This document shows, in pieces, positions 27,644-31,580 of a DNA stretch of 47,724 nt. Made by a program: the position numbers and the translations under genes. The DNA is from Anaerovorax odorimutans. GTDB taxonomy: Bacteria; Bacillota; Clostridia; Peptostreptococcales; JAAYPU01. The notes beneath the pieces are model-generated. The model saw nothing but the letters and a program-made list of their open reading frames with translations. It was not told the origin of the DNA and searched no databases. Every line of letters starts with the position of its first letter. Within the stretch, counting starts at the first letter, position 1. The stretch spans positions 1 through 47,724 of the forward strand of contig JAENZQ010000029.1 in NCBI GenBank assembly GCA_016841185.1, written 5' to 3'.

Positions 27644-28933
27644 ATGCAAGGTGATAAATTGAAAAAAATTATATTTATGATATTTATTATGCTCTATACG
27701 TTTTCACCGATGGTCTATGCGGCAAGTGATTCGGCATCTTCATACTCTCCTGAAAACCACTTTGTAACTGAAAAAGCAAAGGTTGTCAATATTATTTCGG
27801 ACGTCTCCAAAGAAGAATACGATACCCAAGGGTTTCAGGATTTAAAGCAGGTCGTAGAAATTCAAATTCTTTCGGGCGAATATAAAGGCCAGAATGTAAC
27901 CGTTGAAAATGACCTGAGCAATCACGCTTATTATGATATTTTCCTTGAAAAAGGAGATCGTATTACAATTGCTGTAGAAGAAGCTGTCAGTGACTACGAA
28001 ATGCCCAACATTTACATTTCCGGGTTTGAAAGAGACCGTTATGAGCTCTATATCACTATTATATTTATATTTCTCTTAATTTTTATCGGGGGAATTAAGG
28101 GAATCAAGGCTGTCTTTTCATTGGGGCTTTCTATTTCAATCATCCTTTTCCTGATCCTGCCCATGATTTTAAAAGGTTACAGCCCTATTCTTTCATCTGT
28201 ATTTGCTGCTGTCATTATAACAACATTAACACTTTTCATTATTGCAGGTATCAATATAAAATCTGTTTCTGCTATTATTGGAACAGCTTTTGGCGTTATC
28301 GTTGCCGGTATACTGGCTTACATAACAGGCTCCCTTTCTAATCTAACAGGTTTAGCCAGCCATGAAGCAAATATGCTCATGTATATTCCTCAGGATATAT
28401 CTTTTGATTACAGAGGAATCCTTTTCGCAGGTATTATCATCGGAACTCTCGGCGCTGTCATGGACATTGCCATGTCCATTGCTTCTTCTATGCATGAAAT
28501 AAGAGAAATCGAACCCAATATTTCAACAAAAAATCTTATTACAGCCGGCATCAACATCGGAAGGGATGTTATGGGAACCATGACCAATACGCTTATATTG
28601 GCCTATACCGGAACATCTATCCCCCTTATGCTGATTTTCATTGCTTATGATTATCCTCTGATTGAGATACTCAATATGGATTTGATTGCTACGGAAATCA
28701 TACGCTCCATTGCCGGAAGTATCGGTTTGGTTTTAGCTATACCCTTCACAGCAATGACTTGCGGGATTATTATCAATCATTCGGCATCCATAAAAAGACA
28801 TGAACGAATCAGAAAACTGAAAGAGGAGTATAAAGATGATTTAAGGGATATGTATGAAAAAATTAAATCAGAACCTTCTCAATCCGATTATATAAATGAT
28901 ACGCCGACTGATCCCGAGTCTTCTGAAATGTAA
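27644..28933 (+). CDS. YibE/F family membrane protein
   Basis: A 429-residue protein with an N-terminal signal/membrane segment and an extracytoplasmic beta-rich domain of about 110 residues (EIQILSGEYKGQNVTVEN). About eight membrane helices follow from residue 140 (LYITIIFIFLLIFIGGIKGIK). The family blocks are GTLGAVMDIAMSIASSMHEI and TNTLILAYTGTSIPLML. The cytoplasmic tail is charged. Function of YibE/F is unknown. The ATG has TGAGGT upstream. It is divergent from the M15 peptidase gene. Confidence 0.9.
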   Translation: MQGDKLKKIIFMIFIMLYTFSPMVYAASDSASSYSPENHFVTEKAKVVNIISDVSKEEYDTQGFQDLKQVVEIQILSGEYKGQNVTVENDLSNHAYYDIFLEKGDRITIAVEEAVSDYEMPNIYISGFERDRYELYITIIFIFLLIFIGGIKGIKAVFSLGLSISIILFLILPMILKGYSPILSSVFAAVIITTLTLFIIAGINIKSVSAIIGTAFGVIVAGILAYITGSLSNLTGLASHEANMLMYIPQDISFDYRGILFAGIIIGTLGAVMDIAMSIASSMHEIREIEPNISTKNLITAGINIGRDVMGTMTNTLILAYTGTSIPLMLIFIAYDYPLIEILNMDLIATEIIRSIAGSIGLVLAIPFTAMTCGIIINHSASIKRHERIRKLKEEYKDDLRDMYEKIKSEPSQSDYINDTPTDPESSEM

Positions 28934-28974: not shown

Positions 28975-29003
28975 TTGACAAACTTTTAAAATACCATTAT
29001 ACT
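28975..29003 (+). promoter_or_regulatory. Vegetative promoter of the T-box leader
   Basis: TTGACA (28975-28980), 17 nt, TATACT (28998-29003). It is placed just upstream of the T-box RNA. Confidence 0.8.
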
Positions 29004-29021
29004 TATTTAAAATATAATTAA

Positions 29022-29272
29022 AAATGATGATAGAGAAGAGTAATATTGATTCAATGCTTTCAGAGAACCGCTTAACCTGCTGAAAAAGCGGCAACAAAGA
29101 ATTAATACGAAGTTCCCTCTGGAGTTTTTCTGTTGAAATTACAGTAGGCAGAAACGGGTTTTCCCGTTACAGGAAATGGATATATTTGTATCCTTTGAGT
29201 GGGTTTACGCCAATCAGGGTGGTAACGCGGAGCAGATGCCTCGTCCCTTTACAGGGAGAGGTTTTTTATTTT
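29022..29272 (+). ncRNA. T-box leader (tRNA-sensing riboswitch), probable Phe specifier
   Basis: The 5' part has GAGAAGAGTA (29033-29042), the stem I AGTA motif. The specifier region holds GAAGTTCCCTCTGGAG with TTC (Phe) at 29113-29115; TAC (Tyr) at 29106-29108 is the alternative. The T-box AGGGTGGTAACGCGG (29216-29230) pairs with the tRNA acceptor end. It is followed by the terminator CCTCGTCCCT / AGGGAGAGG and a T-run at 29262-29267. It presumably controls the phenylacetate-CoA ligase gene some 325 nt further on. Confidence 0.92.
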
Positions 29273-29280
29273 TATTAAGA

Positions 29281-29304
29281 AGGATACCTTAAAAAAGGTA
29301 TCCT
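29281..29304. terminator. Second hairpin after the T-box terminator
   Basis: A perfect 10-bp stem AGGATACCTT / AAGGTATCCT around AAAA. It may terminate the small gene on the minus strand; no T-run is obvious in either direction. Confidence 0.5.
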
Positions 29305-29383
29305 AATAAAAGTAACTGCTAATATTTGTTACGACTATTTTCAGAGGCAGCGCACATGTGCTTTATATGCCTTCGCTACCTTA

Positions 29384-29494
29384 TTAGTAGACTCTATTAT
29401 TAAAATACGGACACTGACAGAAAAGCACTACAAGCAGCAAGAAGAAAAATAACAAGCTGTCATCTACACCGCCTACTACACCGCAGTTAGACAT
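29384..29494 (-). CDS. 36-residue hydrophobic small protein (YjcZ-like, sporulation type)
   Basis: The ATG at 29494 has GAGGAGG 7 nt upstream, which strongly supports translation. The product starts MSNCGVVGGVDDS, has one hydrophobic run rich in Leu/Phe/Val (residues 14-26), a CQC motif and ends PYFNNRVY. Gly/Cys-rich heads followed by a single hydrophobic stretch are typical of small YjcZ-like and spore-coat-associated proteins of Firmicutes. It lies on the strand opposite to, and between, the T-box leader and the ligase gene that the T-box should control. A sigma-K-like promoter is upstream. Function is inferred only. Confidence 0.7.
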   Translation of the reverse strand: MSNCGVVGGVDDSLLFFFLLLVVLFCQCPYFNNRVY

Positions 29495-29540
29495 TTTACA
29501 TACCTCCTCAAAGATAATAAATATATTTGCTTTATATTTT

Positions 29541-29568
29541 CATAGTATGAATCATTGAATAATCATGT
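29541..29568 (-). promoter_or_regulatory. Sigma-K-like promoter of the small protein gene
   Basis: Minus strand AC, 17 nt, CATACTATG. The sigma-K consensus is AC-N17-CATANNNTA; only the last base differs. The predicted start is about 40 nt before the ATG. Confidence 0.4.
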
Positions 29569-29597
29569 GAACCTATTAAAGGAAAGGATGAAAAGTA

Positions 29598-30896
29598 TTG
29601 ATTTGGAACGAGTATTATGAATGCATGGATCGTGAAAAAATGCGGGAAGTGCAGGGAAAAAGGCTTTGCGACACCGTAGACCGAGTTTATCATAATGTCC
29701 CATTTTACAGAAAAAAAATGCAGACAATGGGGCTGGAGCCCGGAGACATAAAAGGAATCGATGATATCACAAAATTACCGTTTACAACCAAGCAGGATTT
29801 AAGAGATAACTATCCCTTCGGACTGTTTGCTGTTCCCAAAAGCGAAGTCGTCAGGGTTCATGCATCTTCAGGCACTACCGGAAAACCTACTGTTGTCGGA
29901 TATTCCAGAAAAGATATTTATACCTTTTCTGAAGTTGTAGCAAGATCACTGAATAGTTCAGGCGCTACGAGAAATGACATTGTACAGATTGCCTATGGAT
30001 ACGGCCTGTTTACAGGGGGACTGGGACTGCATTACGGAGCAGAAAAAATAGGCGCTACTGTTATTCCTATTTCAGGCGGAAACACTCAGAAACAACTGCA
30101 GCTCATGCAGGATTTCGGCAGCACGGTTATTGCCTGCACTCCTTCTTATGCATTATATCTTTCAGAGGCAATGGAAGAAGCGGGCATTTCTCCGGAAACT
30201 CTTAGTCTTAAGGCCGGTATTTTTGGAGCCGAACCCTGGACGGAAGAAATGAGACAGAATATTGAACAAAGTCTCAATATTAAAGCCTATGATATATATG
30301 GGTTGAGCGAAATTATAGGCCCCGGAGTTGCAAATGAATGTGATTACCAATGCGGTCTTCATATATGGGAAGACCATTTCGTTCCGGAAACCATTGACAC
30401 TGATACGCTTCAGCCATCAAAAAAAGGATGTATTGGAGAGTTGGTATTTACAACCATAACAAAAGAGGCACTTCCGCTTTTACGATACAGAACACGGGAT
30501 TTAACTAGATTGGATGACACAAAGTGCGAATGCGGAAGAACTGCCGTCAGGATGGAAAAATGTACAGGACGTTCGGATGACATGTTAATTATCCGGGGAG
30601 TAAATGTTTTTCCATCACAAGTGGAAAGTGTATTGCTTGAAATAGGCGAAACAAAGCCTCATTATCTTTTGATCGTTGATCGTGAAGGTGCATTGGATAC
30701 CCTTGAGATATGGGTAGAAGTAGACGATTACTATTTCTCGGATGAAATCGGAAAACTGGAAGGCCTCTCAAACAGGATAAAACATGCCGTAGAAAGCGTT
30801 TTAGGTATAAGCATAAAAATAAAGCTGGTAGAACCAAAAACCATTCAGCGGTCAGAGGGAAAAGCCCAAAGGATCATTGATAAGAGGAAAGCATAA
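29598..30896 (+). CDS. paaK: Phenylacetate-CoA ligase (aryl-acetate, AMP-forming)
   Basis: A 432-residue adenylate-forming enzyme activates phenylacetate or indoleacetate-type acids to CoA thioesters with ATP. Visible features are [15 protein letters not shown] at the start, the P-loop [47 protein letters not shown] and the C-terminal [14 protein letters not shown] with a late catalytic Lys region. The start is TTG with GGAAAGG upstream; its N-terminus matches relatives, so later ATGs are rejected. With the ACT protein it resembles the paaK-ACT half of iorAB-paaK-ACT clusters of amino-acid fermenters. No iorAB is in the window. The upstream T-box, probably for Phe, suggests control by aromatic amino-acid status. 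Confidence 0.92.
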
Positions 30897-31038: not shown

Positions 31039-31464
31039 ATGATTATCACACAACTATCTGTTTTTCTGGAAAACAGGTCCGGAAGATTAACAGAAGTCAC
31101 AGATATATTTTCAGAAAACCAAATCAATATTTCTGCTCTCAGTATTGCAGAAACTGCTGATTATGGTGTCCTGAGAATGATTGTAGATAAGCCGGAAATA
31201 GCTGTTCGTGTTCTTAAAAAGAACGATTTATCAGTTCATACAACAGAAGTTGTCGCCGTTATTACACCGGATATTCCGGGCGCTCTCAATAAAGTAATAA
31301 AATATCTTTCGGAAGAGGAAATAAATATCGCCTATATGTATGGTTATTCCCATGAGAACAAAGCATCCATCATCATGAAAGTTAACAACCCGCAAAAAGC
31401 AGTAGAAATTTTACAAAACAAAAAAATTGAACTGATTTCTGCAAGTGATTTTTATGAAATATAA
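31039..31464 (+). CDS. Tandem ACT-domain protein
   Basis: A 141-residue protein with two ACT domains. The first starts ITQLSVFLENRSGRLTEVTDI and the second VVAVITPDIPGALNKVIKYL. ACT domains bind amino acids, and this pair would sense an aromatic amino acid. Genes of this kind follow paaK in arylpyruvate-degrading clusters. The ATG has GGAGG 8 nt upstream. There is no catalytic domain. A perfect palindrome lies 67 nt downstream. Confidence 0.9.
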   Translation: MIITQLSVFLENRSGRLTEVTDIFSENQINISALSIAETADYGVLRMIVDKPEIAVRVLKKNDLSVHTTEVVAVITPDIPGALNKVIKYLSEEEINIAYMYGYSHENKASIIMKVNNPQKAVEILQNKKIELISASDFYEI

Positions 31465-31531: not shown

Positions 31532-31580
31532 AAAGGATTTGTTCCAATTGGAACAAATCCTTTCCTTAATTCTCCACTGT
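31532..31580 (-). repeat. Composite element, copy D, with a perfect 32-nt palindrome
   Basis: 31532-31563 is a perfect palindrome (AAAGGATTTGTTCC, AATT, GGAACAAATCCTTT). It is followed by CCTTAATTCTCCACTGTCAA. Read on the minus strand it is TTGACAGTGGAGAATTAAGG then AAAGG, the same core as copy C. It may also terminate the ACT gene. Confidence 0.7.

Follow-up and report, generated by a model that had tools for sequence, protein, structure and literature searches.

T-boxes with a Phe specifier are known from genes of Phe supply, as with the NSS transporter of the Bacillus cereus group (PMC2494555), and the genes so far known under their control encode synthetases, transport or classical synthesis. 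PaaK-type ligases are familiar from aerobic phenylacetate degradation, where they act in a pathway with PaaA/PaaC and are under phenylacetate control. A PaaK-type AMP-forming arylacetate-CoA ligase is also found beside IOR in Bacteroides loci, where such a ligase has been assayed; a biosynthetic role for such an IOR has been argued from chemistry, and the reductive direction has been proposed both there and for arylpyruvate synthesis in methanogens (PMC13285125). For Bacteroides, that study asked whether anaerobes use IOR and an AMP-forming arylacetate-CoA ligase to build aromatic amino acids or to break them down.

Like the known Phe T-boxes, the T-box of the locus described here places a Phe specifier on what would be a Phe-supply gene, but the gene is a paaK. 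With the Phe T-box on pheST of the same genome (L002), it shares Stem I with a specifier loop, Stem III, the antiterminator bearing the T-box sequence, the UGGN bulge, the competing terminator and the UUC codon; unlike pheST, the target is an arylacetate-CoA ligase followed by a tandem-ACT gene. No paper joining a T-box with a phenylacetate-CoA ligase was found in our literature search, whose scope excluded TBDB and the surveys PMC2271356 and PMC2650889, so a prior listing is possible. The window, meaning the whole 47,724-nucleotide stretch of Anaerovorax odorimutans DNA that we analyzed, contains the following features around this switch.

28975–29003, forward strand: sigma-70-type promoter TTGACA-17-TATACT, an 11/12 match and the top score of the region
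29018–29251, forward strand: T-box leader RNA with Stem I, Stem II, Stem III and antiterminator (Rfam RF00230)
29032–29035, forward strand: AGAG, 5′ strand of the Stem I helix closing the specifier loop, partner of 29117–29120 (covariation)
29113–29115, forward strand: specifier codon UUC (Phe), from the Rfam alignment, the covarying helix and comparison of paaK T-boxes
29117–29120, forward strand: CUCU, 3′ strand of the specifier-closing Stem I helix (covariation)
29220–29223, forward strand: T-box bulge UGGU, able to pair with the terminal ACCA of tRNA-Phe and shared by the paaK T-boxes
about 29239–29267, forward strand: intrinsic terminator hairpin with a T6 run, the alternative to the antiterminator (read from hairpin and T-run)
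29281–29304, reverse strand: hairpin, terminator of the antisense gene; its T-run lies on the minus strand in G001 and G002, the plus strand having none
29384–29494, reverse strand: antisense gene for a 36-aa hydrophobic protein (MSNCGVVGGVDDSLLFFFLLLVVLFC...), an ORF with a good to strong RBS
29598–30896, forward strand: PaaK-type AMP-forming arylacetate-CoA ligase with a TTG start (TIGR02155, PF14535; solved relatives 2y27, 2y4o and 4r1l)
31039–31464, forward strand: tandem-ACT protein (PF19571 ACT_8, 107 bits; solved relative 2f06, E 9e-42)
31532–31563, forward strand: terminator-like hairpin 3′ of the ACT gene (hairpin reading)

The T-box was the sole Rfam RNA family recognized in the window, and at 29018–29251 on the forward strand it scored 123.9 bits against a gathering score of 93 (E 3.9e-27), covering model positions 1–219 at full length. 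It is a class I T-box and a complete transcriptional leader, in which the hairpin and T6 run form the competing terminator. These data bear out the first-pass annotation in placing a full T-box, with promoter and terminator, ahead of paaK and the ACT gene. The interval drawn there for the switch, to 29597, proved too long: the switch stops near 29267, and the remaining ~330 nt contain the antisense gene, which went unnoticed in that annotation. The window also encodes, 5′ of the T-box and in the same orientation, a YibE/F-like membrane protein (27644–28933; PF07907, 281 bits).

The assignment of the ligase is to a family rather than to a substrate. Against TIGR02155 it scored 602.0 bits, under the equivalog cut-off of 646.3, so we describe it as a PaaK-type ligase for which phenylacetate is only the presumed substrate. 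PF00501 and PF14535 were both above cut-off, giving an AMP-binding fold with the PaaK-type C-terminal domain, and the matches to 2y27 (466 bits) and 2y4o (441 bits) place it in the same enzyme family as the PaaK of aerobic phenylacetate degradation. The ACT protein is probably an amino-acid-sensing partner that senses an aromatic amino acid. Among 80 named paaK loci found with a PaaK alignment, many of them from other phyla, the ACT gene lies just downstream of paaK in 66, and iorA is within 6 kb of paaK-ACT in 35. The same genome holds a second paaK-ACT pair (L062, G000:C14:127682-128974), with a ligase 56% identical to the first and no T-box.

We searched for PaaK relatives in 78 relatives and then in 297 genomes of the order. 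A same-strand T-box above the gathering score was found 45–443 nt upstream of paaK at 23 of the best 30 PaaK loci in the order; one further case, from a named Clostridiaceae MAG (L161), brings the total to 24 and was the only T-box that a motif scan detected among the 80 named loci. The specifier UUC, the UGGU bulge and a T-run after the leader are present in all 24, and a recognizable TTGACA promoter stands ahead of 20. The neighborhoods of these T-boxes vary by family and include a tyrS/lon group, a uvrD-like/ligA-like group, a polC/nusA-like group and others, with gene names taken from reading of the sequences; since the surrounding genes differ between families, it is with paaK, and usually the ACT gene, that the T-box stays. 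Moreover, with only 20 T-boxes in the 3.56-Mb genome (whole-genome T-box list) and the same pairing in 23 other genomes, chance adjacency is unlikely. The T-box-paaK link is no accident of position, and the presence of the T-box, its specificity and its conserved target are well supported as real.

A single origin of the T-box on paaK was considered and rejected. The protein tree needs up to six changes of T-box state, and well supported branches force at least three of them, which means several gains or losses. In the tandem arrangement at L234 and L235 the order is paaK1-ACT, T-box, paaK2-ACT, so that only the second copy lies 3′ of the T-box. An azaaromatic (yjdF) riboswitch (87.5 bits) was also seen near the T-box paaK locus of G203, at L213 4159–4261.

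The genome encodes IorAB elsewhere (C25; IorA 720 bits, IorB 288 bits), and paaK-ACT is unlinked to iorAB, in contrast to the Bacteroides loci, in which the ligase adjoins IOR. Of the order's 23 T-box genomes, 21 have IorA, whereas G026 and G287 gave no match. The possibility that iorAB carries the same T-box was not borne out, either at 25 iorA loci in a core-motif scan or at iorAB in the whole-genome T-box list. No relative of PaaA/PaaC was present in the genome, which sets this ligase apart from the aerobic pathway, as does having Phe starvation, and not phenylacetate, as its controlling signal. In several T-box genomes (L251, L252 and L261), iorAB stands beside phosphate acyltransferase or acyl kinase genes, which mark the energy-yielding outward route (PMC13285125).

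From these components, a mechanism can be proposed. When Phe is scarce, uncharged tRNA-Phe would make two contacts, anticodon GAA to specifier UUC and terminal ACCA to the UGGU bulge; this binding would stabilize the antiterminator and allow transcription into paaK and the ACT gene as a dicistron. The ligase would then activate phenylacetate at the cost of ATP, phenylacetate being abundant where Phe is fermented, and IorAB with reduced ferredoxin would carboxylate phenylacetyl-CoA to phenylpyruvate, from which a transaminase would make Phe. The direction of flux, the substrate of the ligase, the role of the ACT protein and, in the window's own family, passage of transcription beyond the antisense gene are the inferred parts of this scheme.

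We consider it likely that the T-box is a Phe-starvation switch on paaK-ACT serving Phe synthesis from phenylacetate, as a salvage route. That the ligase serves amino acid synthesis is, we infer, the best reading because it combines Phe-starvation control, AMP-forming chemistry, the proximity of iorAB in other phyla, IorAB in this genome and the lack of PaaA/PaaC; a role in breakdown fits poorly, as the T-box would shut paaK off when Phe is plentiful. Counted against the synthesis reading are the T-box-free iorAB, the two genomes without an IorA match, the intervening antisense gene, the loss of the T-box in G002, the sub-cut-off TIGR02155 score, the missing purine 3′ of the specifier and a prephenate dehydratase. 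The latter, overlooked in the first-pass annotation, is encoded here as well as by 22 of the 23 T-box genomes. We therefore rejected the paaK route as the sole source of Phe; it would be a salvage or second route, not required for Phe.

If the switch does serve synthesis, its occurrence in this genome and at least 23 relatives suggests that these anaerobes, when short of Phe, may rebuild it from phenylacetate with a “degradation” enzyme, and paaK in anaerobe genomes should be taken with caution as a sign of phenylacetate degradation. Whereas the direction of the Bacteroides pathway was argued from chemistry (PMC13285125), finding a Phe-starvation switch conserved ahead of the ligase gene adds independent, regulatory evidence that the route is synthetic and opens the question to experiment.

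The strongest alternative accepts that the Phe T-box controls the ligase but gives phenylacetyl-CoA a purpose other than Phe synthesis, such as CoA-ester exchange in Stickland fermentation, removal of phenylacetate or the synthesis of another product. It draws on the classical Phe pathway enzyme just described, on the T-box genomes in which IorA had no match and on a ligase substrate and flux direction that are presumed. However, a Phe T-box would silence the gene just when Phe is abundant and being fermented, the energy-yielding kinase route, with genes of the PTA_PTB or acetate-kinase type beside iorAB or VOR, already covers the outward direction, and paaK-ACT adjoins iorAB across phyla. We regard this alternative as unlikely.

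A less probable alternative concerns only the window's own family, in which the 36-aa antisense gene sits between the T-box terminator and paaK. The gene could cut the T-box off from paaK here, leaving the T-box a remnant and paaK on another promoter, with control intact elsewhere. Between the two lie 346 nt and the antisense gene, and G002, of the same family, has lost its T-box yet retains both paaK-ACT and the antisense gene. The gene and its minus-strand terminator are kept in G001 and G002, the two nearest relatives, and its protein gave no Pfam or NCBIfam match. Against such a disconnection, this genome and G001 both have the promoter, specifier register, terminator and UGGU bulge intact, as if the T-box were still under selection; no plus-strand promoter-like site of at least 9/12 was found in 29014–29598, and the hairpin at 29281 has no plus-strand T-run. 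We find disconnection improbable and read-through past the antisense gene into paaK likely in this family.

A departure of the paaK T-boxes from known T-boxes, newly noticed here, is a pyrimidine directly 3′ of the specifier. At this position (29116) the window has C, and the purine R90, which is conserved in T-boxes without being a defining feature, is absent. That purine lies just 3′ of the specifier and props the codon-anticodon duplex from below (PMC7583486). Across the 24 paaK T-boxes, the base is C in 14, U in 6, G in 3 and A in 1, a pyrimidine in 20 of 24, whereas a purine stands there without exception in the genome's 19 other T-boxes (pyrimidine in 0 of 19; Fisher p 1.7e-8, uncorrected for kinship among the 24). 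Loss of the purine could weaken the switch, and its absence offers a natural test of how far the R90 contact counts. More tentatively, the Phe T-box might set the direction in which a reversible arylpyruvate pathway runs, with the purine loss tuning it to deep starvation, after pheST has responded. While Phe is in good supply, one and the same IOR would then work outward together with the acyl-phosphate kinase route; it would turn inward once starvation had switched on the ligase. We regard this as possible but doubtful.

This pyrimidine is also the one point in favor of another specifier register (e.g., GUU for Val, UCC for Ser or CCC for Pro) and hence a switch that is not aromatic, a reading that we consider hardly credible, since UUC never changes although the bases around it do, the same UUC is followed by a purine in 4 of the 24 paaK T-boxes, the neighboring covarying helix sets the register, and the reading rule was right for every other T-box of the genome. 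The 4-bp helix adjoining the specifier pairs and covaries, which fixes the register: 100% of its cells are paired across 22 paaK T-boxes, compensatory changes occur at 2 of 4 pairs, and in that alignment the helix in register clearly beats every shifted version. A single-sequence fold of the leader was tried and rejected as proof of the specifier, as the minimum-energy structure mixes alternative states; the covariance model and alignment were used instead. Folding of Stem I had been put forward in the first-pass annotation as the way to confirm the specifier; the covariance model and alignment confirmed the register, but the single-sequence minimum-energy fold lacked it.

We read specifiers by Rfam alignment position; tried on the genome's remaining 19 T-boxes, this rule gave the amino acid that the downstream genes would lead one to expect in 19 of 19. 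The codons were GCA for alaS; UUC for pheST; CUC for an isopropylmalate/citramalate-synthase-like gene; AAC for asnS and asnA; AUC for ileS; GUC for valS and ilvC; UCC for serS; AUG for metG; CCC for proS and an ornithine cyclodeaminase; UGG for trpB, trpE and a transport operon; GGA for glycyl-tRNA synthetase; UAC for tyrS; UGC for cysE-cysS; and ACC for thrS. Target names were assigned by reading protein sequences, except for the cyclodeaminase. The genome's tRNA-Phe has the anticodon GAA and a 3′ end of ACCA, fitting the UUC specifier and the UGGU bulge. TTC (Phe), the probable specifier proposed earlier, is upheld by the covarying helix, the 19 of 19 readings, the invariant UUC and UGGU of the paaK T-boxes and this tRNA match. 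The CCC T-box before the cyclodeaminase (90.7 bits, slightly under the gathering score) precedes L019 1501–2834 (G000:C26), a putative nickel-pincer-nucleotide-dependent ornithine cyclodeaminase (NF052526, 581.8 bits), and on its sequence this switch could provide proline from ornithine under proline starvation.
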